51,643 nucleotides of DNA from Ilumatobacteraceae bacterium (GTDB lineage: Bacteria > Actinomycetota > Acidimicrobiia > Acidimicrobiales > Ilumatobacteraceae), in contig JAJTFJ010000008.1 of assembly GCA_021298435.1 (NCBI GenBank), positions 1 through 51,643 of the forward strand. The letters are read 5' to 3'. The stretch's first letter is position 1; every line of letters begins with the position of its first letter. Positions 12,328-24,379 of this stretch are shown piece after piece. The notes under the pieces are model-generated. The model made no database searches. It saw only the letters and a program-made list of their open reading frames with translations, and was not told where the DNA came from. A program made the position numbers and the translations under genes.

Positions 12328-12717
12328 ATGAAGAAGATTGCTTTTGCTGCTCTCGCAGTATTCGCGTTGTCATCCTGTGGTGATGCAACCACAACTGACT
12401 CAACGTCAGTAGCGCCAACAACCGTCGCTACAAATTCATCTGATGAGTCGAACACGGAGACTTTTACGTTGACCGTCGGTGAGAACTCTGGCGCCAAGAA
12501 CATCGTCTCGTTTACAAAAGGTTCCAATGTTGAACTAACCATCGTGAACCCCAATGCAGACGATGAAGTGCATCTTCATGGGTATGACCTCACAACCGGA
12601 GATTTACCAAAAGGTGAAAAGGGAGTTATCAGCTTTATTGCTGATGAAGCCGGTGATTTTGAGATCGAGAGCCACATCACCGAAGAGGTTCTCTCCATCA
12701 TTCGAATTTCTGAATAA
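12328..12717 (+). CDS. Secreted lipoprotein with cupredoxin-like domain
   Basis: A 129-residue protein with a lipoprotein signal peptide: MKK start, hydrophobic core and lipobox ALSSC with Cys at about 17. A Thr/Ser-rich spacer (about 22-47) follows, then an about 80-residue beta domain with VELTIVNPNADDEVHLHGYDL and a C-terminal ISFIADEAGDFEIESH. The His residues of VHLHGYD resemble a cupredoxin copper site, but the usual Cys-His-Met loop is not evident, so copper binding is uncertain. Stop overlaps the start of the next gene (TAATG). Confidence 0.72.
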   Translation: MKKIAFAALAVFALSSCGDATTTDSTSVAPTTVATNSSDESNTETFTLTVGENSGAKNIVSFTKGSNVELTIVNPNADDEVHLHGYDLTTGDLPKGEKGVISFIADEAGDFEIESHITEEVLSIIRISE

Positions 12718-14825: not shown

Positions 14826-15764
14826 ATGACTGTGCCCCTCAATGTTCGTCCCGTCGTCCCCTCGCGCCTGACTAGCCGCGGACACAACTCTGGTCGTGCT
14901 CCCCGGTCCGTTGTTGGTGGCTACATTGCTCTCACAAAGCCCCGAATCATTGAGTTGTTGCTCATCACCACGGTTCCAACAATGGTGGTGGCAGAGGGCG
15001 GTTGGCCTGCACTCAGCCTTATTTTGATCACGTTGCTTGGTGGCTCATTGGCAGCTGGCGGAGCGAACGCAATCAACATGTACATCGATAGGGACATTGA
15101 TGCCCTCATGGAACGCACCAAGACCCGTCCCCTGGTGACTGGCTTGATCGCCCCAAGAAATGCCCTGATTTTCGCTATTTCTCTGGAAGTACTGGCTTTT
15201 GCCGTTTTGTGGGCTGGCGCCAACTTCTTGTCGGCGTGTTTGGCACTGTCGGCCACTTTCTTCTACGTGTTCGTCTATTCCTTGTGGCTGAAGCGCACGA
15301 GTAAGCAGAACATCGTTATTGGCGGCGCCGCTGGGGCTGTTCCCGTCCTTGTGGGCTGGGCTGCGGTCACCAATTCGTTGTCCTGGACCCCTTGGCTTCT
15401 GTTTTTGCTCATCTTCTTGTGGACCCCTCCACACTTCTGGGCATTGGCCATTAAGCACCGCGAGGACTACACCGCAGCCGGAGTTCCCATGCTTCCCGTG
15501 GTGGAGAGCCACGAAAAGGTCATCCGGTCGATGATTCTGTACACAATCGCACTAACTATTTCCAGTTTGGTGATTATCCCGGTGGGAGACATGGGTTGGG
15601 TTTACGGCATCTCGGCCGCAGTGCTTGGCCTGGGATTCTTGTGGGGCACAATCGCACTAGGTCGATCCGATAGTCCAGCGGCATCTATGAAGCTGTTTTC
15701 GTTCTCCATTTCGTACATCACGGTCCTCTTCGTCGCCCTGACCGTCGATGTCTTTGTTCGTTAA
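14826..15764 (+). CDS. ctaB: Protoheme IX farnesyltransferase (heme O synthase)
   Basis: Integral membrane UbiA-family prenyltransferase that farnesylates heme B for the heme A of the downstream oxidase. About 310 residues with eight or nine hydrophobic helices. The substrate motif INMYIDRDIDALMERTKTRP carries the Asp-rich NxxxDxxxD site, and TPPHFWALAIKHREDY is the second family motif. The ATG at 14826 is annotated, but TACGAT at 14818-14823 suggests transcription starts near a GTG at 14832, two codons in. It leads the respiratory block. Confidence 0.95.
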   Translation: MTVPLNVRPVVPSRLTSRGHNSGRAPRSVVGGYIALTKPRIIELLLITTVPTMVVAEGGWPALSLILITLLGGSLAAGGANAINMYIDRDIDALMERTKTRPLVTGLIAPRNALIFAISLEVLAFAVLWAGANFLSACLALSATFFYVFVYSLWLKRTSKQNIVIGGAAGAVPVLVGWAAVTNSLSWTPWLLFLLIFLWTPPHFWALAIKHREDYTAAGVPMLPVVESHEKVIRSMILYTIALTISSLVIIPVGDMGWVYGISAAVLGLGFLWGTIALGRSDSPAASMKLFSFSISYITVLFVALTVDVFVR

Positions 15765-15909
15765 TAATGCGCAATTGCACTAACTAAAAGCCTTCCAAGG
15801 ATTTACCCACCGAGTGGGGGCGGTGGTTAGTGTTAGAGCGTTACATCTAGGCGAAATCACCCCGGAAGTTCGCAAGGGCCATGGGGTGTCACCAGGAGAC
15901 CATCCGAAA

Positions 15910-17520
15910 ATGACCACCAACGACACTCATGTCGGCGCATCGACCAAGAGCTCTGGCTCGTCCGTTGTCGCCTCAGTTGGCCAATGGATGACCAGTAGCG
16001 ATCATAAAAAGATCGGAAGACTGTTCATCGGTTGGTCTCTTGTTCATGCAATAGAGGTTGCCGTCATCGGCATCATCTTTGGCTTGGAGAGAATGAGCCC
16101 ATCCAGCATGCAGATCTTTGATGGTGATGCTGCGCTTCAGCTTTCATGGTTGTTCCGTCACGTCCTGGTACTCGGATTACTGGCACCACTCTTTATTGGC
16201 ATTGCAATTGCAGTTGTTCCCATGCAGGTCGGTTCAAAAGCAATCGCGTTCCCTCGCCTGGCGCAATACGGATTCTGGGCATGGTTCTTCGGATCCGGTC
16301 TTGTCCTAATTTCACTCATCGCTAACGGCGGTCCTAATGGTGGTAACGCCGACATGGGTGACCTCTTCCTGATGGGTGTCGGACTTCTTCTTGTGGGCCT
16401 TTTGTCAGCAAGCCTTTCTGTGGCAACCACAATTCTCACGTCACGTGCTCCTGGCATGTCACTCGACATGATTCCTGCGTTCTCGTGGTCTGCCCTCATC
16501 GCATCAATCGCAACATTGCTCACTGTGCCAGTCGCAATGAGCAACATCATCTATCTCTATGTAGACCACACCTACGCACAGAACGCATTCGGTGGCGGCA
16601 AGGGCATGGAGACATGGCTTGGTTGGATCTACTCAGCCCCTCATACCTTCGTGTTCGTCATCATGGCACTCGGAGTTCTTGCGGAAGTTGCTCCTGTGGC
16701 AGCACGTGTTCGCCAGCCATTGCGCCCCGTCTTGCTCGGCGGCATTGCATTGATTTCCACTGCGACCATCGGCGCAGTCACACAGACCAATCATGTTCTT
16801 GATCTCTCCGGCACAAACGGCGACAAGTTGTCCAGCACTGTGCTGTTCCTTCTGACAAACGGTTTGCCGCTTCTCGGAATGCTCGTTGCTCTTGCAGTCG
16901 CAATGCTTTCCTTCAAGGAAGGCAAGCCAACAGTGAATGCAGCTTTTGCGTTCTCCATTCTTGGAGTGCTCATGATTCTTGCTGGCGCTACTGGTTCATT
17001 CCTCGCGAACATCAAGGACGCAGGGTTGCAGGGAACATCATTCTCTGAAGGCGTCACGCTGTATCTCGCGTACGGCGGCGTGTTGGTTGCACTTGGTGCA
17101 TTGACGCACTGGGCACCAAAGTTGTGGGGCGTTGTTCTTGACGACAAAAAAGTTCTTGGCCTTGCCGGTCTTGGCTTGATCGGAACAGTTCTTTCATCGC
17201 TTCCGCTGTACATCGCCGGCTTTGCTGATCAGCCAGCCAACATTGTCACCGGTTTTGATTACGACGGTCCCGTTGCACTGTGGAACGTTCTTGCCGCAGC
17301 AGGCTCTGCGCTGATTGCTCTTGTCGTCCTCGCGTACGTTGGTCTTCTGGTCGCAGCAGTGAGCGCAGGTGCCGGAGCAAAAGACGACCCATGGGACGCA
17401 CACACACTTGAGTGGTCGATTCCTTCACCAGCACCAGCAAACAACTTCGCTTCACTCGCAACGGTTTCTTCAAGCGAACCACTTCTCGACGCGAAGCCTT
17501 CTCAGGAGGTACCGGCATGA
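15910..17520 (+). CDS. Heme-copper oxidase subunit I paralogue lacking metal ligands
   Basis: About 536 residues with about 12 membrane helices, clearly homologous to CtaD: SSDHKKIGRLF, VPMQVGSKAIAFPRL, SRAPGMSLDMIPAFSW and the C-terminal DPWDAHTLEWSIPSP all have direct counterparts in the real CtaD of this window. The active site is gone. The helix VI copper motif GHPEVY reads SAPHTF (Ala 243 for the CuB His, Phe 247 for the cross-linked Tyr). The His-His pair has no counterpart, and the helix X AHFHY motif with both heme-iron ligands is replaced near LYLAYGG (384-390). Only one His (84) lies near helix II. It cannot bind CuB or heme a3 as usual. Start ATG 15910 follows AGGAGA. Role unknown; possibly structural or regulatory in the oxidase. 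Confidence 0.82.
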   Translation: MTTNDTHVGASTKSSGSSVVASVGQWMTSSDHKKIGRLFIGWSLVHAIEVAVIGIIFGLERMSPSSMQIFDGDAALQLSWLFRHVLVLGLLAPLFIGIAIAVVPMQVGSKAIAFPRLAQYGFWAWFFGSGLVLISLIANGGPNGGNADMGDLFLMGVGLLLVGLLSASLSVATTILTSRAPGMSLDMIPAFSWSALIASIATLLTVPVAMSNIIYLYVDHTYAQNAFGGGKGMETWLGWIYSAPHTFVFVIMALGVLAEVAPVAARVRQPLRPVLLGGIALISTATIGAVTQTNHVLDLSGTNGDKLSSTVLFLLTNGLPLLGMLVALAVAMLSFKEGKPTVNAAFAFSILGVLMILAGATGSFLANIKDAGLQGTSFSEGVTLYLAYGGVLVALGALTHWAPKLWGVVLDDKKVLGLAGLGLIGTVLSSLPLYIAGFADQPANIVTGFDYDGPVALWNVLAAAGSALIALVVLAYVGLLVAAVSAGAGAKDDPWDAHTLEWSIPSPAPANNFASLATVSSSEPLLDAKPSQEVPA

Positions 17521-18122
17521 CATTGGCATTGCCTTCCGCACCCTCACAGACATCACGTCGTCAGGTTCTTGTCGGCACAGCGTTAGTCGCTGCTGCAGCA
17601 GGAATGTTGATTGCCGGCATGCTCGCAATGTGGATGAAGTTCCGCGCTGGTGCGCCGACTCGTGAATCTGCTGATGGTCTGAAGATCATCAAGGACTGGA
17701 TGTCGAAGGACATCATCGTTCCTGAAGTAGCTGCTAACACAATGTTTGCAACATTCCCATTTGCAGCGTTGATGGCTCAGTGGGCTGTGTATGCCGCAAA
17801 GCGTCGCGATGGTCAGCACCGCTCACTTGCGCTTGTGATTTTGTTTGGCATTGGTATCGCAATTGTGAATGCCCAAGTTGCCATCTACGCCCAGATGGAA
17901 GTTGTTGTGGCAGAAGGCGCATTTGGTGCCATGTTCTACGCAATCACCGGCACCATGTTGGCGTTGATTGTGAGCGGCATGGCCTTCACTGCAGTTGCTT
18001 TCTTCCGTTCCGTCGGCGGACGCGATGATGACCTGCAGGTCATTTCAGCGAATGCGTTGTATTGGTACTTCCTCACCGCGGCATTCACCGCAGTGTGGTT
18101 CTTCGTGTACGTGCAGAAGTAG
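17517..18122 (+). CDS. Oxidase subunit III-like paralogue
   Basis: 201 residues with five hydrophobic helices. The second half matches the CtaE layout: AFGAMFYAITGTMLALIVSGM against FYTLTGFHGIHVSVG, and NALYWYFLTAAFTAVWFFVYV against GLYWHFVDVVWIIIFTLVYL. The His residues of the true subunit III are replaced (YWHF reads YWYF, and the GFHGIH pair is absent). Start ATG 17517 overlaps the stop of the subunit I-like gene (ATGA) and has a strong AGGAGGT; an upstream in-frame extension to 17412 is rejected. Forms a set with its two neighbours. Confidence 0.78.
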   Translation: MTLALPSAPSQTSRRQVLVGTALVAAAAGMLIAGMLAMWMKFRAGAPTRESADGLKIIKDWMSKDIIVPEVAANTMFATFPFAALMAQWAVYAAKRRDGQHRSLALVILFGIGIAIVNAQVAIYAQMEVVVAEGAFGAMFYAITGTMLALIVSGMAFTAVAFFRSVGGRDDDLQVISANALYWYFLTAAFTAVWFFVYVQK

Positions 18123-18128
18123 GTCGAG

Positions 18129-19253
18129 ATGATTACTCCAGGCTCAAAATATTTCCTCGGCCTCACAGGCCTTGGTCTTGTGTCCGCAGTCTTGTACTGC
18201 TTCCTCGTTAATCCTTCAGACCTTGGTGCATATGCGTTATTTGGTTTGTTTATCAGCGCTGCACTCATCGCTGGTTTTTCGATCTTCACTTCCGACGGCG
18301 ACACAGACTCTGTTGCTGAAGCAGTAGAGGCAAACACGGAAACAACGGCTCCTTCTTTCTGGCCAATCGTTTTTGCACTTGGTGGTGCGTTGACACTTTT
18401 GGGAATTGCAACAAACGAGATTGTTTTTGTTCTCGGTCTTGCTGTCCTTGTCGGTGGCGCCGTGGAATGGGTCATTGACGACTGGGCTGAAAAGGCATCT
18501 GCTGATACCGAGTTCAACTCATTTATTCGTCATCGCGCAATTGGTGCACTTGATTACCCAGGCATTGCTGCTGTGGTGCTCGGTGTTGTTGCGTTCTTGT
18601 TCTCACGAATCATGCTCACTGTCTCGAAGGACGAAGCATCAATCATCTTCATCATTGTGTCCGCCCTGATTTTCGTAACAGGATTTCTTCTTGCAGCGAA
18701 ACCAGCTTTGCGTGGCAAGTCCACAGCCATCATCTCGGTGGTAGGAGCGCTCGTTCTTGCAGTCGCTGGAGTCACCAGCGCTCTCAATGGAGAGCGCAAG
18801 GAACTTGTGAAGTACGCGAAGGAAGATCCGTACTCGATTTCTCATCGTGAGTGTGGCAAAGAAGCGGGCGAGCATTACGACCACGAAGCCAATGGCTCCG
18901 TGTCATTGCGCTCTGGCGTCATTGCAACAATTTTCGTTGAAGGCGGCAAGATTCGTGCTCAAGAAGTCGGACTGAAGCGTGACGTTCAGGCCATCACTAT
19001 TCCGCGCTCGAACTCCACAACGATTTTGTTCCGCAATCTTGATTCCGAGGAATATCGCTTAGTAGCCAATTTGGGCGAAGCCAAGGTGGGAACCACCGAC
19101 GTAATGGAAAAGGTCGGAACCTGTACTCAGCTCACCGGTAAAAACGAAGAGCAAGCTTTGACCGTCACTATTCCTAAGCCTTCGAACCCTGAGGCTCCGT
19201 ACACGTTGACGGTGCCAGGGGCAACAGGCGAGATCAAGGTGGTGGTGCCGTGA
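18129..19253 (+). CDS. Membrane protein: CtaF-like subunit IV module plus extracytoplasmic beta domain
   Basis: 374 residues. The first about 120 resemble the small actinobacterial oxidase subunit CtaF: helices at about 8-27 and 33-52, then PSFWPIVFALGGALTLLG, which parallels the PSYWPILLSIGVGLLGLG tail of ctaD in this window. Three more helices follow (about 143-165, 170-190, 197-218). The last about 150 residues are soluble, probably outside the membrane, with AITIPRSNSTTILFRNLD and a terminal YTLTVPGATGEIKVVVP that recalls a cupredoxin fold; no copper site is evident. Stop overlaps ctaC by 4 bases (GTGA), so it is in the oxidase operon. Function unknown. Confidence 0.7.
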   Translation: MITPGSKYFLGLTGLGLVSAVLYCFLVNPSDLGAYALFGLFISAALIAGFSIFTSDGDTDSVAEAVEANTETTAPSFWPIVFALGGALTLLGIATNEIVFVLGLAVLVGGAVEWVIDDWAEKASADTEFNSFIRHRAIGALDYPGIAAVVLGVVAFLFSRIMLTVSKDEASIIFIIVSALIFVTGFLLAAKPALRGKSTAIISVVGALVLAVAGVTSALNGERKELVKYAKEDPYSISHRECGKEAGEHYDHEANGSVSLRSGVIATIFVEGGKIRAQEVGLKRDVQAITIPRSNSTTILFRNLDSEEYRLVANLGEAKVGTTDVMEKVGTCTQLTGKNEEQALTVTIPKPSNPEAPYTLTVPGATGEIKVVVP

Positions 19254-20506
19254 GCCACACCAATAAGCCCAAGACAACGGAGAAGGCAATGGATACCGTG
19301 AGCCCCGTGAAAAGTTTGACTCGTCGAATTTCGACCACCGTCGCAGGCGTCGCTGGCGCTGTCGTGTTGGCAGGTTGTGCTCAGAACGCACCGCAAGACA
19401 CCTGGAAGCCAAAGGGCGATAACGCCCAGATGATTTACTCACTCGACAAACTGGTGTTCCCCATCGCCGGCATCGTCGGTGTTCTTGTCTCGGCACTCGC
19501 TGGGTACATCTTCGTGAAGTTCCGCGACAAGGGTCAGGCAATTCCTGCTCAGTCGCATGGAAAGCCCATTGTCGAAATCGTTCTTACGATTGTTCCTGCT
19601 TTGATCTTGACCGTTGTCGGTGTTTTCACTTTCCGCACAATCATGGATCTTGCAGAAACGCAAGACACCGAAATGATTATCAACGTCACTGGTCAGCAGT
19701 GGTGGTGGGAATATGACTATCCCGCACAAGCAGATCAGGGCATCACGCAGCCGATTATCACGTCGGGTCAGTTGGTCATTCCTGAAGACACCAATGTTTT
19801 GTTGCGCGAGACAAGCCGCGACGTTATTCACTCATTCTGGATTCCAGCACTGAACGGCAAGAAGGATGCAGTTCCTGGTCGTATTCACCTGCTTCGTATG
19901 CAGGCTGATCAGCCAGGCATTTATGCCGGCCAGTGCACTGAGTTCTGTGGTCTCTCCCACGCAAACATGCGCATGGAAGCCATTGCGTTGTCGAAGGAAG
20001 ACTTTGCAAAGTGGGTGGCGAACCAGCAGAAGCCATACACGGCTCCTGCAGAAGGAACATTGGCGAAGGAAGGCGAAGGCGTCTTCATTAATCAGTGCGC
20101 ACGTTGTCACCAAGTCAATGGCATTAAAGATGCCAATGGCAAAGCAATCATCTCTGCTCCTGACGAGAACGTCTATTCCGGTGCTGCACCGAACTTGACG
20201 ACACTCATGACTCGCAACACATTTGCTGGTGCCATGTTCGACATGGTGAATCAGAAGTGCCGTGCAGATGTGTGGGATGCAAAGTCAGAAGACTTTGGCG
20301 CGAAGTATCTCGCCGGCGTTACTGAAGATTGCCTGAATGAGAAGAACTTGCGTGCGTGGTTGCGCAATGCACCGGCTATGAAGCCGATGTATGCCGACCC
20401 AGCAAAACTTGAAAAAACCAATGGTTTGTACCGCGGTATGCCAAATCTCGGCCTCACCGAAGACGACATTGACAAGCTCGTTGCCTATCTATTGACGCTG
20501 AAGTAA
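19250..20506 (+). CDS. ctaC: Cytochrome c oxidase subunit II fused to cytochrome c (caa3 type)
   Basis: 418 residues. The N-terminal signal ends in lipobox VLAGC (Cys 43), so the protein is lipid-anchored, followed by two helices. The CuA domain has VTGQQWWWEYDYP (aromatic electron entry), VIHSFWIP and QCTEFCGLSHANM, supplying the His, Cys, Glu, Cys, His and Met ligands. A C-terminal cytochrome c has the heme site CARCH (283-287) and the likely Met ligand in YRGMPNLGL. The fused heme c makes this a caa3-type enzyme. GTG start overlaps the upstream stop; an internal ATG at codon 14 is possible. Confidence 0.95.
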   Translation: MSHTNKPKTTEKAMDTVSPVKSLTRRISTTVAGVAGAVVLAGCAQNAPQDTWKPKGDNAQMIYSLDKLVFPIAGIVGVLVSALAGYIFVKFRDKGQAIPAQSHGKPIVEIVLTIVPALILTVVGVFTFRTIMDLAETQDTEMIINVTGQQWWWEYDYPAQADQGITQPIITSGQLVIPEDTNVLLRETSRDVIHSFWIPALNGKKDAVPGRIHLLRMQADQPGIYAGQCTEFCGLSHANMRMEAIALSKEDFAKWVANQQKPYTAPAEGTLAKEGEGVFINQCARCHQVNGIKDANGKAIISAPDENVYSGAAPNLTTLMTRNTFAGAMFDMVNQKCRADVWDAKSEDFGAKYLAGVTEDCLNEKNLRAWLRNAPAMKPMYADPAKLEKTNGLYRGMPNLGLTEDDIDKLVAYLLTLK

Positions 20507-20518
20507 TCGGAGAACGAC

Positions 20519-22504
20519 ATGGCGATCATCGAACGACCCGGAACAAGCACTACTCCAGTAGTGGTGACTCCACAACAGACTCTTGGTGCTGTGAAGCGCC
20601 CGGTTGCGACAAAGGGCTGGCGCGAGTGGCTCTTCACCGTTGACCATAAGAAGATCGGCATCATGTACGGCGTTGTCGCCATGGTGTTCTTCATTATTGG
20701 TGGTGTGGAAGCTCTGCTCATTCGTTTGCAGCTTGCGATGCCAGACGGCCAGATTCTTAGTGCCGACAAGTACAACCAAATGTTCACCATGCACGCCACC
20801 ACCATGGTGTTCTTGTTCGCCATGCCAATGGCCGGTGCGTTTGCGAACTACTTCTTGCCATTGCAGATTGGTGCGCGCGACGTTGCGTTCCCACGAATCA
20901 ACGCATTGTCATTGTGGCTTCTCATCATCGGTGGTCTTGTTCTCAACGCTTCGTGGTTCCTTGGCGGAGCTGCTGATGGTGGTTGGTTCATGTATGCACC
21001 AAACTCCGGTCCGATCTTCTCGCCATCACATGGTGTCGACTTCTGGGTCATCGGTTTGCAGATTGCTGGTGTGGCGTCATTGCTTGGCTCCATCAACCTG
21101 ATCGTCACAGTTCTCAACATGCGCGCTCCAGGTATGAGCCTTATGAAGATGCCAGTGTTCACGTGGATGATCCTCGTGGTGCAGTTCCTCTTGGTCTTCT
21201 CACTTCCCGTGATCACCGTGGCACTCGTTCTTCTGATGCTGCAACGATCGTATGGAGCAACGTTCTTCGATGTTTCCCAAGGCGCTGACCCGCTGTTGTG
21301 GCAGCACTTGTTCTGGATCTTCGGACACCCAGAGGTGTACGTGTTGATTCTGCCGGCCTTCGGCATCATCTCTGAAGTACTCCCAACGTTTGCTCGTAAG
21401 CCTCTCTTTGGATACCCATTCGTGGTGTTCTCCGGTGCTTCGATCGGACTCGTCGGATTTGGCGTGTGGGCTCACCACATGTTTGCCTCAGGTCTCGGGC
21501 CTGTATCAGTGGCGGTGTTCTCCGTTGCAACAATGGCGATTGCGATTCCAACCGGCGTCAAGATCTTCAACTGGTTGCTCACAATGTGGGGCGGCAAGAT
21601 TTGGTACACCACCGCAATGAACTTTGCGATTGGCCTCGTGGTGTTGTTCACCATTGGTGGCTTGTCAGGTGTTACTCACTCTGTTGCACCATCTGACACA
21701 CAGCAGACAGATACGTACTACATCGTTGCTCACTTCCACTACGTGTTGTTCGGTGGCATGGTGTTCGGTCTCTTCTCCGGTTTCTACTACTGGTGGCCAA
21801 AAGTGTTCGGCAAGATGCTGAACGAAAAACTTGGTGCGTGGAACTTCTGGTTCATGGTCATTGGTATGAACATGACATTTGGACCGATGCACATTCTTGG
21901 TCTTCAGGGCCAGCCACGTCGTATGTACGTGTGGACAGAAGCTCGTGCAGGTGAAGGTTTCTTCAACCTCGGTTTCTGGAACCTTGTTGCTTCGATTGGT
22001 TCATTCATCCTCGCGGTGGGCGTTCTGTTCTTCCTCATCAACGTGGTGATTACAGCTCGCAGCAAGCAGCAAGCGCCGCTTGACCCATGGGACGCTCGTA
22101 CCCTTGAATGGTTGACCACCAGCCCGCCAAAGGCTCACAACTTCGATCGCATTCCTGTTGTTCATCACTTGGATGAGTTCTTCCACCGTAAGTACGAGGA
22201 AGACACAGCAACACACACAATGAAGAAGGTTGCCGAAGGCGAAGATTTGGTTCGCGCAGAGGGTGATGCAGCGGATGCACACATCCACTTGCCATCGCCG
22301 TCGTACTGGCCAATTCTTCTCTCGATTGGCGTTGGTCTTCTCGGCTTGGGAGTCGTGTACGGCATTCCAATGATGGTCATTGGTTTCGCCATCACTTTGT
22401 TCTCTGCATACGGTTGGGTCCTCGAGCCATCCGTTGCTGAAGAGATTGATTTTGAGCCATCAGACAATGATGGCAACACGAAGGAGATTGCTCCCCTTGG
22501 CTGA
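20519..22504 (+). CDS. ctaD: Cytochrome c oxidase subunit I with C-terminal CtaF-like extension
   Basis: 661 residues; the catalytic subunit reducing O2 to water and pumping protons. All ligands are present: His 92 in FTMHATTM (heme a), GHPEVY at 269-274 (CuB His 270, Glu 272, Tyr 274), HH at 319-320 (CuB), and AHFHY with His 405 (heme a3) and His 407 (heme a). Glu 272 in HPEV marks an A1-family proton channel. After the normal end (about 570) come about 90 residues with two helices, PSYWPILLSIGVGLLGLG, like actinobacterial CtaF, so subunit IV is fused here. ATG 20519 follows GGAGAACGAC. Confidence 0.96.
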   Translation: MAIIERPGTSTTPVVVTPQQTLGAVKRPVATKGWREWLFTVDHKKIGIMYGVVAMVFFIIGGVEALLIRLQLAMPDGQILSADKYNQMFTMHATTMVFLFAMPMAGAFANYFLPLQIGARDVAFPRINALSLWLLIIGGLVLNASWFLGGAADGGWFMYAPNSGPIFSPSHGVDFWVIGLQIAGVASLLGSINLIVTVLNMRAPGMSLMKMPVFTWMILVVQFLLVFSLPVITVALVLLMLQRSYGATFFDVSQGADPLLWQHLFWIFGHPEVYVLILPAFGIISEVLPTFARKPLFGYPFVVFSGASIGLVGFGVWAHHMFASGLGPVSVAVFSVATMAIAIPTGVKIFNWLLTMWGGKIWYTTAMNFAIGLVVLFTIGGLSGVTHSVAPSDTQQTDTYYIVAHFHYVLFGGMVFGLFSGFYYWWPKVFGKMLNEKLGAWNFWFMVIGMNMTFGPMHILGLQGQPRRMYVWTEARAGEGFFNLGFWNLVASIGSFILAVGVLFFLINVVITARSKQQAPLDPWDARTLEWLTTSPPKAHNFDRIPVVHHLDEFFHRKYEEDTATHTMKKVAEGEDLVRAEGDAADAHIHLPSPSYWPILLSIGVGLLGLGVVYGIPMMVIGFAITLFSAYGWVLEPSVAEEIDFEPSDNDGNTKEIAPLG

Positions 22505-23111
22505 GACAGCAACACACACAGCTGACCACGCGTCAGAACACGGTCACGAAACGTCCACCGGCCTCACCAACAACAAGTTGGCGATGTGGCTGTTCTTGGG
22601 CTCAGAATGCCTTCTCTTTGGTGGCCTCATCTCCACCTACATGTTGTATCGAGGTCGTGTCTCCGACGGACCACATCCGATGGCGATCTTCGACATTCCT
22701 TTCACATCGGTCAGCAGCTTTGTGTTGCTGATGTCCTCTCTCACAATGGTGTTGGCCGTGTCGTCAGCACAGCGTGGCGATGACAGCCGTACAAACTTGT
22801 GGCTCACCATCACCGCAGTGTTGGGTGCGACCTTTGTTGGCGGCCAGGTCTACGAATTCACCGCTTTCATTCGTGAAGGCCTCGGATTCTCCACCAGCCT
22901 CTTTGGCTCGAGCTTCTACACATTGACTGGCTTCCACGGAATTCACGTGTCGGTTGGCGTGCTCATGTTGCTTTCCACCGTGGGCATTATTCGCAAGAAC
23001 AAGATCACCGGCAATAAGGCTGAGGTTGTTGAACTTGTAGGTCTTTACTGGCACTTCGTTGACGTGGTGTGGATCATTATCTTCACTCTCGTTTACCTGA
23101 TTCCATCCTGA
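22497..23111 (+). CDS. ctaE: Cytochrome c oxidase subunit III
   Basis: 204 residues and five helices, the shorter bacterial form. Motifs: KLAMWLFLGSECLLFGGLI (with the Glu of helix III), FYTLTGFHGIHVSVGVLML, and VGLYWHFVDVVWIIIFTLVY. The TTG at 22497 is chosen since AAGGAG lies 10 bases upstream and the next residues (LAETATHTADH) suit a cytoplasmic tail; the longer frame from 22380 lies inside ctaD. It overlaps ctaD by 8 bases. It binds subunit I and helps keep the proton uptake path and the active site stable. Confidence 0.95.
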   Translation: MAETATHTADHASEHGHETSTGLTNNKLAMWLFLGSECLLFGGLISTYMLYRGRVSDGPHPMAIFDIPFTSVSSFVLLMSSLTMVLAVSSAQRGDDSRTNLWLTITAVLGATFVGGQVYEFTAFIREGLGFSTSLFGSSFYTLTGFHGIHVSVGVLMLLSTVGIIRKNKITGNKAEVVELVGLYWHFVDVVWIIIFTLVYLIPS

Positions 23112-23125
23112 TAGCGAGGGACGTC

Positions 23126-23425
23126 ATGAGTACATCTACTGAACAGCACGAACACGGCATGACAGATGCCGGTTACATCAAGATTGCAATCATCTTGGCG
23201 GCGATTACGGCGCTTGAAGTCTCTACGTATTACGTCGACTTCGGGCCGCTCTTCATGCCCTCATTGATGATCATGATGGTGGTCAAGTTTGTGATGGTCG
23301 TGTCGTACTTCATGCACTTGAAGTTCGATAGCAAGATTTTCACTTTCTTGTTTTATACAGGCTTGGGCCTTGCGTTGTTTGTGTACATCACTGCACTCGC
23401 AACGTTTAAGTTCTTCATCTCCTAG
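23126..23425 (+). CDS. Small cytochrome c oxidase subunit IV (prokaryotic COX4/CyoD-like)
   Basis: 99 residues with three helices: YIKIAIILAAITALEVSTYY, PSLMIMMVVKFVMVVSYFMH (with HLKFD after it) and FLFYTGLGLALFVYITALAT. This is the pattern of the small CyoD/CtaF-type accessory subunit. Start ATG 23126 follows GCGAGGG. Because ctaD already carries a fused CtaF-like tail, the locus has two kinds of small subunit. Confidence 0.88.
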   Translation: MSTSTEQHEHGMTDAGYIKIAIILAAITALEVSTYYVDFGPLFMPSLMIMMVVKFVMVVSYFMHLKFDSKIFTFLFYTGLGLALFVYITALATFKFFIS

Positions 23426-23443
23426 TAGAGAGTTGGGTCGACG

Positions 23444-24379
23444 GTGTTCTTCGCCGCTATAGAACCCACGACAAACCCGGACCCCTGGCGGTACCAGTTC
23501 CACCCAGAAGTCTGGGTACTGATCATCGGGCTTATTGCTGCCTTTGTGTACACCGTGCGCGTTCTGGGGCCAAAGGTCGCCCCTGAAGGCAAGGTCATTA
23601 GTCGCCGGCAAAAGACCACATTCATTGTGATGATTGCGTTGTTGTGGTTGGCGAGTGACTGGCCCATGCACGACTTGGCGGAAGAGTATCTGTACTCCAT
23701 GCACATGGTGCAGCACATGATTCTTACGTACATCATTCCGCCGTTGGCCTTGTTGGCAACACCGGAATGGCTTTTCCGTTTGCTCATTGGCAAGGGGCTC
23801 ACGTACAAGGTGGTCAGAGTTCTTACGCGTCCGGTGGTCGGAGTCGTTGTGTACAACTGCACACTCATGATTACGCATATTCCCCAGATTGTGAATCGAA
23901 GTGCCGACGGTGGCCCGTTGCATTACTCGTTGCACGTTCTAGTGGTCTTTACGTCGTTGATGTTCTGGACTCCGGTGTGTGGACCAATTCGCGAATGGCG
24001 AATGTCTGATGGTGCGAAGATGATTTATCTCTTCGGCACCTCTTTAATTCCAACGATTCCTGCAGGGTGGCTGACCTTTGCCGAAGGCGCTGTGTACAAG
24101 CACTACGACACGATTGTGCGCGTCGGTGGCATCAGCGTTCTGAGTGACCAACAAGCTGCTGGTGGAATCATGAAGCTTGGTGGATCATCCCTCATGTGGG
24201 GAATCATCATCTACATCTTCTTCAAACGCTTTATGGGTTCGTTCTTTCAAGAACAGTCGTATGACCATGCTGATCAGATACCTGATGCAGAAGTCGTCGG
24301 TACAGAACCGCCACTGATGTATTCAGAAGTGGAAGCAGCGTTTGATCGCACTCGTCCAGCGAGTGAGCCGACGAACTAA
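23444..24379 (+). CDS. ctaG: caa3 oxidase assembly factor CtaG
   Basis: 311 residues, about seven helices, with the CtaG family strings HMVQHMILTYIIPPLALLATPE and HIPQIVNRS, conserved His residues, WTPVCGP and a basic loop. It assists assembly of caa3 oxidase, probably copper delivery (family knowledge). The GTG at 23444 starts the protein. It is the last oxidase gene; its stop overlaps the stop of the convergent ABC permease gene by 4 bases. Confidence 0.92.
   Translation: MFFAAIEPTTNPDPWRYQFHPEVWVLIIGLIAAFVYTVRVLGPKVAPEGKVISRRQKTTFIVMIALLWLASDWPMHDLAEEYLYSMHMVQHMILTYIIPPLALLATPEWLFRLLIGKGLTYKVVRVLTRPVVGVVVYNCTLMITHIPQIVNRSADGGPLHYSLHVLVVFTSLMFWTPVCGPIREWRMSDGAKMIYLFGTSLIPTIPAGWLTFAEGAVYKHYDTIVRVGGISVLSDQQAAGGIMKLGGSSLMWGIIIYIFFKRFMGSFFQEQSYDHADQIPDAEVVGTEPPLMYSEVEAAFDRTRPASEPTN

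Follow-up and report, generated by a model that had tools for sequence, protein, structure and literature searches.

Why should a bacterium keep, directly in front of an ordinary cytochrome oxidase operon, a second set of oxidase genes whose catalytic subunit lacks the residues that bind its metals? The question is raised by a stretch of 51,643 nucleotides (hereafter the window; contig JAJTFJ010000008.1, positions 1 to 51,643 of the forward strand) from an Ilumatobacteraceae bacterium (assembly GCA_021298435.1), whose genome is 1.53 Mb and 76% complete. This bacterial order is largely uncultured, and the sample names of the near relatives refer, we presume, to lakes and reservoirs. At 15910-19253, between ctaB and an ordinary caa3 operon, lie three genes that we call psI, psIII and psIV (the trio). 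On balance, it appears probable that the trio is a former redox complex whose cofactors were stripped stepwise, and that it is kept as a structural partner of the caa3 oxidase.

The initial annotation had described psI and psIII as full-length paralogues of oxidase subunits I and III in front of a normal caa3 oxidase, and this proved right: the COX1 family PF00115 matches psI end to end (127.5 bits, model positions 1-435 of 436), and PF00510 matches psIII (30.7 bits). It had also read the motif changes correctly, GHPEVY being SAPHTF and AHFHYV being VTLYLA in psI. In a MAFFT alignment with the CtaD proteins of the window and of twelve relatives' loci, the six histidine positions of psI hold F, A, Q, T, V and L, and the active-site Tyr, the K-channel Lys and the Glu of PEVY are replaced by F, A and H. 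The structure model proposed as a check was made with AlphaFold2 from a 19-row alignment (predicted local distance difference test, pLDDT, 82; predicted template modelling score, pTM, 0.87), and psI models as an oxidase subunit I fold: Foldseek gives template modelling scores of about 0.8 to oxidase subunit I structures, and 0.83 to the mycobacterial CtaD 9gy6. Of the features that define an A-type haem-copper oxygen reductase, psI thus has the PF00115 domain and the fold; the full set of six histidines is absent from it and from all of 101 relatives. NCBIfam oxidase models score under their cut-offs on psI (CtaD_CoxA, 186 of 671 bits). Judged from its sequence, psI is almost certainly inactive as an oxidase. 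Subunit III of oxidases is not known to bind a metal, so the loss of His in psIII, which had been counted as a loss of metal ligands, is uninformative on cofactors; psIII stands as a paralogue.

How far does this loss extend beyond the window? The 101 relatives are psI frames of at least 480 residues from other loci (shorter fragments, such as that of L030, were excluded, and the window is not among the 101). None of the three CuB histidines is kept in 95 of them, one is kept in six, and none keeps two. All three haem histidines are kept in six frames (G030, G032, G033, G036, G037, G636) and the low-spin haem pair only in another six (G207, G226, G626, G634, G637, G642); the pair is absent in 89. 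The haem His of the second transmembrane helix is kept in 28 frames overall, and the residues at this position vary (Y in 30, H in 28, S in 11). Neighbouring CtaD proteins have all six histidines in 88 of 89 frames longer than 540 residues, the exception (L212) being frame-broken in its assembly. A fresh alignment differed from the earlier one in seven rows at the haem and first CuB columns, none involving His, and in five rows at the HH columns, one by a His: the single CuB His of L219 appears in only one of the two alignments.

On a tree with caa3 and aa3 CtaD (101 rows, with 68 of the 84 psI frames then known and 25 caa3 CtaD), psI forms a single clade. The idea that psI arose by a recent tandem duplication of the adjacent ctaD was rejected, as psI branches outside the 25 caa3 CtaD, with the caveat of its long stem. 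On a second tree (80 of the 101 psI frames and six CtaD, near-copies removed), most of the rows that keep haem ligands branch close to the base, L223 being among the exceptions. The haem pair changes four times, three of these changes being forced by well-supported branches, or is lost five times if no regain is allowed. Parsimony does not distinguish loss from gain, and the regain of two histidines at the exact places is unlikely. Because haem histidines persist in deep-branching relatives, the psI family probably began as a haem protein. The initial annotation had named conserved His at the haem and CuB sites as evidence that would speak against it: within the genus of the window these sites hold none, apart from a lone His discussed below, while the deep-branching relatives do retain their haem ligands.

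Could psI instead work through other ligands, such as Gln, Met or Cys, or as a metal-free conductor of ions or protons? Gln is common at two former CuB positions, the first CuB position (55/101 frames) and the first of the HH pair (75/101). However, the window psI has Ala at the first CuB position, the residues at the haem position vary as described, and the K-channel Lys and PEVY Glu are not kept; we regard this explanation as highly improbable.

The trio belongs to a co-directional row of genes at 14826-24379:

14826..15764, + strand: ctaB, haem O synthase (UbiA family; PF01040, 229.8 bits), the usual upstream neighbour of the trio by synteny
15910..17520, + strand: psI, ligand-less paralogue of cytochrome oxidase subunit I (CtaD-like; PF00115), 536 residues, about 12 transmembrane helices
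17517..18122, + strand: psIII, paralogue of oxidase subunit III (CtaE-like; PF00510 COX3, 30.7 bits), 201 residues
18129..19253, + strand: psIV, 374 residues, with four CtaF-like transmembrane helices, three further transmembrane helices (SRxxL) and a C-terminal cupredoxin-fold domain (PF12270, Foldseek)
19250..20506, + strand: ctaC, caa3 subunit II with CuA domain and cytochrome c domain (PF00116, 81.5 bits; PF00034, 41.1 bits), start codon uncertain
20519..22504, + strand: ctaD, ordinary catalytic subunit I with all six His and a C-terminal CtaF-like part (PF00115, 522 bits)
22467..23111, + strand: ctaE, ordinary subunit III (PF00510, 81.8 bits on 22497-23108), start codon uncertain
23123..23425, + strand: small subunit IV (COX4_pro; PF03626, 41.1 bits), start uncertain
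23444..24379, + strand: ctaG, caa3-type assembly factor family (PF09678, 133.7 bits)

psI runs from an ATG at 15910 to a stop codon at 17518-17520 and overlaps psIII by four bases (ATGA, 17517-17520); ribosome sites precede psI (AGGAGA at 15894) and psIII (AGGAGG at 17504). psIV and ctaC overlap as GTGA, provided that ctaC starts at the GTG at 19250. A promoter scan found 4 matches against 4.7 expected by shuffling. The ctaD of the window scores over the cut-off of TIGR02891 (696.6 bits). Elsewhere in the window, a small lipoprotein-like frame at 12328-12717 (+ strand), of cupredoxin type by eye, lies about 2 kb upstream of ctaB.

These intact, overlap-coupled frames with strong ribosome sites had been taken as a sign that the genes are maintained and not decaying, and our results agree. 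The three frames are open. In pairwise comparisons with five relatives (NG86), the dN/dS check proposed earlier, psI gave 0.052, 0.057, 0.125, 0.162 and 0.190, psIII 0-0.118, psIV 0.035-0.149 and ctaD 0.030-0.082; the psI values thus lie above those of ctaD and far below 1, with dS exceeding 1 for psI in the three more distant pairs. A slowly decaying relic, devoid of present function, might be expected to show what is seen in part: branches longer than those of ctaD, loss of ligands, and 51 of 94 scorable psIV without the long C-terminal domain. That the window trio is such a relic is nevertheless extremely improbable, given open frames, dN/dS of 0.05-0.19, retention in genomes of 1.3-2.5 Mb and a gene order that recurs in 101 loci. 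With the metal ligands lost and the genes maintained, the suggestion of an inactive sister complex is supported; the two other roles proposed in the initial annotation, a scaffold for caa3 assembly and part of a supercomplex, are weighed below. Within the genus, a long psI match (at least 491 residues) was found in 20 of 25 genomes; of the other five, one has psI fragments, two have the real CtaD only and two have neither. The match ends near residue 494 in four of the 20 (G004, G005, G009, G012), so the C-terminal tail is missing in some genomes of the genus; in G022 it continues past a TGA at about residue 494.

What, then, is selection acting on? In the cytoplasmic half of the 101 psI, column conservation is 0.544, against 0.449 in the outer half; 88 CtaD from the same loci have the reverse pattern (0.794 and 0.835). 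Many near-invariant residues of psI fall in the DHK motif, the PLQ...FPR loop, the RxxGM loop and the C-terminal TLEW...SP tail, which are assigned to the cytoplasmic side from the helices of the predicted model; some, such as P244 and G255, lie in the outer half. The pattern fits a role played through the predicted cytoplasmic face, not through the old active site.

Synteny points to the caa3 oxidase as the setting of this role. In an even sample of the order, psI was present in 46 of 69 genomes, each of the 46 being inspected as a locus, and the full row ctaB-psI-psIII-psIV-ctaC-ctaD was found in 88 of the 101 psI loci. The other 13 are without one or more members in the stretch examined, mostly at contig or stretch ends. 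A scan of genome contigs gave five loci, every one a close relative of the window. In one locus (L077, 8000-12600, from G226), frames resembling by eye a metal ABC importer (binding protein, ATPase and permease) lie between psIV and ctaC. In 99 of the 101 loci the trio follows ctaB; the remaining two begin downstream of where ctaB would lie. This proximity to haem O synthase would suit an assembly factor that stays outside mature caa3, the trio mimicking CtaD, CtaE and CtaF while it holds haem A, chaperones or subunits, and non-catalytic homologues can generally act in assembly. We nonetheless consider it rather unlikely: ctaG and ctaB are already present, relatives of other orders have caa3 without the trio, and a three-subunit copy exceeds in size the assembly factors known to us.

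Co-occurrence raises another possibility, that the trio links caa3 to the b6-type bc complex in a supercomplex. In a survey of 80 of the 93 genomes first listed, b6-type cytochrome b (PF00033, at least 140 bits) was found in 58 of 59 trio-positive genomes and in 0 of 20 genomes that were classed as trio-negative within the order, where the best matches (about 80-109 bits) were longer QcrB-type frames. Of the 59, 57 were inspected as loci and two (G130, G071) were placed by matches only; of the 20, eight were judged from their best-matching locus and 12 from lists of matches, those of G144, G219 and G270 being incomplete. However, b6-type cytochrome b is also present in 33 of 34 genomes of other orders, and for 15 of them inspection of the best CtaD's locus showed no trio. 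The link between trio and b6 therefore follows the caa3/b6 chain as a whole, the b6-type bc complex was rejected as a specific partner, and we judge the bridging role quite improbable. In the trio-negative families the caa3/b6 chain is replaced by a QcrB-type chain. No A-type psI was seen in 20 inspected loci of other orders of the class, one of which ends inside ctaC. Within this order, the trio is best regarded as something added to the caa3/b6 chain. An alternative complex III in the chain was rejected, its marker ActD occurring in 0 of 80 genomes. One genome with the same family code as the window (G181, 96% complete) has b6-type cytochrome b and yet no subunit I match at E 1e-10.

The initial annotation had seen a two-gene unit, missing the third member, psIV (18129-19253), and with it a link to copper proteins. 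The N-terminus of psIV weakly resembles the actinobacterial subunit IV, CtaF (PF12270, 16 bits, below cut-off). In the AlphaFold2 model (pLDDT 77, pTM 0.40) the C-terminus is predicted to have a cupredoxin fold, matched by Foldseek to auracyanin and amicyanin (E 2e-4); the window psIV sequence has none of the type-1 copper ligands (C-H-M loop). Such a loop is present in psIV of 11 of the 94 scorable loci, nine of which keep the haem pair in psI and two of which do not; two scorable loci have the haem pair without the loop (Fisher p = 2.7e-9). Of the 83 scorable psIV that do not have the loop, 32 end in a long tail; in the other 51 the tail is too short to accommodate the domain. The remaining seven of the 101 loci are without a scorable psIV, and one of them, L089, keeps the haem pair and has by eye no copper domain.

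Where did the copper module come from? Twelve of 20 loci from other orders carry, after ctaG and in the same orientation, a gene for a protein with three transmembrane helices and a cupredoxin-like domain, and most of 20 phylum loci chosen by their psIV match have a similar one after ctaG; the caa3 operons concerned belong to other classes as well as other orders. The three-helix segment of these proteins shows homology (47-64 bits) to the central part of psIV, and 29 of 33 scored rows, or 28 of 32 distinct genes (L149 and L195 being one), carry the type-1 copper loop; the four exceptions are a truncated row and three short proteins encoded on the opposite strand. In the 75 trio loci where ctaG can be seen, no gene of this kind comes after it. 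Across 296 genomes sampled from the phylum, a psIV match across the whole transmembrane part is confined to this order, and the three-helix and CtaF-like parts occur separately elsewhere. It looks, from these comparisons, as if the copper module had moved from the post-ctaG position into psIV. Other Actinomycetota with a blue-copper gene of this kind after ctaG include L148, L150, L153, L156, L157, L163 and many of L176-L194; the L150 protein, the one tested, has no NCBIfam match above cut-off.

The rest of the trio suggests, weakly, descent from an actinobacterial aa3-type CtaD-CtaE-CtaF set. Among solved structures, the haem-keeping psI of L045 matches mycobacterial CtaD first (6adq, 261 bits), then Bacillus aa3-600 (231) and Thermus caa3 (171), whereas the real CtaD of the window has aa3-600 first (528) and mycobacterial CtaD second (514). 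psIII prefers the actinobacterial aa3 CtaE model, its best NCBIfam match, at 36.6 against 18.7 bits in the window (below cut-off) and 37.3 against 35.4 in L046. Compared with the aa3 oxidase of the M. smegmatis and C. glutamicum III2IV2 supercomplexes (6adq, 7q21), psI shares the fold (0.83), psIII weakly matches CtaE and psIV resembles CtaF below cut-off; unlike that oxidase, psI is without CuB and in the window without haem ligands, the trio has no CtaC-like CuA subunit of its own, and psIV carries the three-helix and cupredoxin parts. The caa3 oxidase of the same operon has subunits homologous to the trio, encoded by adjoining co-directional genes, and differs in that its CtaD keeps six His and passes the NCBIfam cut-off. 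The post-ctaG proteins share with psIV the SRxxL helices and C-terminal cupredoxin domain (Pfam); unlike most of them, the window psIV is without the copper loop and its module is joined to a CtaF-like part.

Ligand positions are also replaced in CcoN-like proteins of other Actinomycetota (L149, L197-L201, L204), which, unlike psI, are C-type and of separate origin; a ligand-less C-type family thus seems to exist. One (L149, 9093-11237, from G052, of another order; also L195) is a CcoN-like protein of 715 residues whose haem and CuB histidines are replaced in the alignment, and which is fused to the three-helix part and an intact cupredoxin loop (CDVHPTM) directly before ctaC. It is possibly an independent pseudo-oxidase at the same place; no full-length match to it was found in other genomes among 246 of the phylum. 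The alignment has the ligand positions replaced in L197, L198, L199, L200, L201 and L204, and in L201 a His adjoins the first of them; L202, L203 and L207 keep the ligands. The L204 protein has a CxxCH part, and about 1.6 kb separates its gene from one for a b6-type cytochrome b.

The following course of events would account for these observations. psI, psIII and psIV would descend from an oxidase set CtaD, CtaE and CtaF, probably of the actinobacterial aa3 type, and a membrane-anchored cupredoxin module would have joined the CtaF-like subunit. In the early complex CuB would have been lost, with one or two haems and the blue copper still bound; being without CuB, it could not reduce O2, and it was probably an electron-transfer partner of caa3. 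The cofactors would then have been shed step by step, in several lineages. In the window the complex would be metal-free, selection keeping its fold, above all the cytoplasmic face, and its position in the operon. The trio would most likely sit in the membrane beside caa3, a sister unit without catalysis of its own that serves the stability, assembly or dimerisation of the active oxidase. Its putative place in caa3 or in a III-IV supercomplex is suggested by synteny and co-occurrence. A more specific version, which we put forward as tentative, holds that deep lineages have a CuB-less haem core and a blue-copper subunit passing electrons towards caa3, and that the window trio is a cofactor-free, obligate structural half of the caa3 holoenzyme, in a hetero-complex of pseudo-oxidase and oxidase.

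Several observations weigh against this account. When psI is compared with Bacillus QoxB by phmmer, the His of TQTNHV falls on the second His of the HH pair, so that the window psI has His at 1/6 ligand positions by phmmer and at 0/6 by MAFFT; the earlier statement that no HH pair is left holds in the latter alignment, and in the former a single His remains, short of a CuB site. Of the 20 genus genomes aligned, 19 keep this His (G005 has Q), and 17 of the 101 psI frames contain TQxxH; neither the His of LFRH nor that of APH is conserved through the genus. The reading of ligand loss stands, because one His on its own cannot make up a CuB site. Branch lengths of psI exceed those of ctaD several-fold. 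The association of haem and copper is not significant when ancestry is allowed for (three independent pairs), and with so few comparisons may be shared ancestry only. The window psI scores 121 bits against both Bacillus QoxB and mycobacterial CtaD, and this tie, together with the long psI stem that makes tree placement uncertain, weakens the case for aa3 descent. Finally, caa3 occurs without the trio in other orders, and so does not generally need it.

We found no description of the trio in open-licence PMC papers. The excerpts of PMC8239418 and PMC9145763, on oxidase evolution and assembly, do not mention it. According to PMC3084760, sequences without the six His were removed before oxidases were classified. 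Because recognition rests on these six residues, and at least one classification dropped sequences that lack them, conserved oxidase pseudoenzymes would be missed. In this order, the steps from haem and blue copper to no metals can be traced in one operon slot, a natural experiment on the use of an oxidase scaffold in the absence of redox chemistry. The trio may be an added component of the order's respiratory chain: a dead copy of a respiratory enzyme that evolution has kept, and that seems to have a metal-free job.
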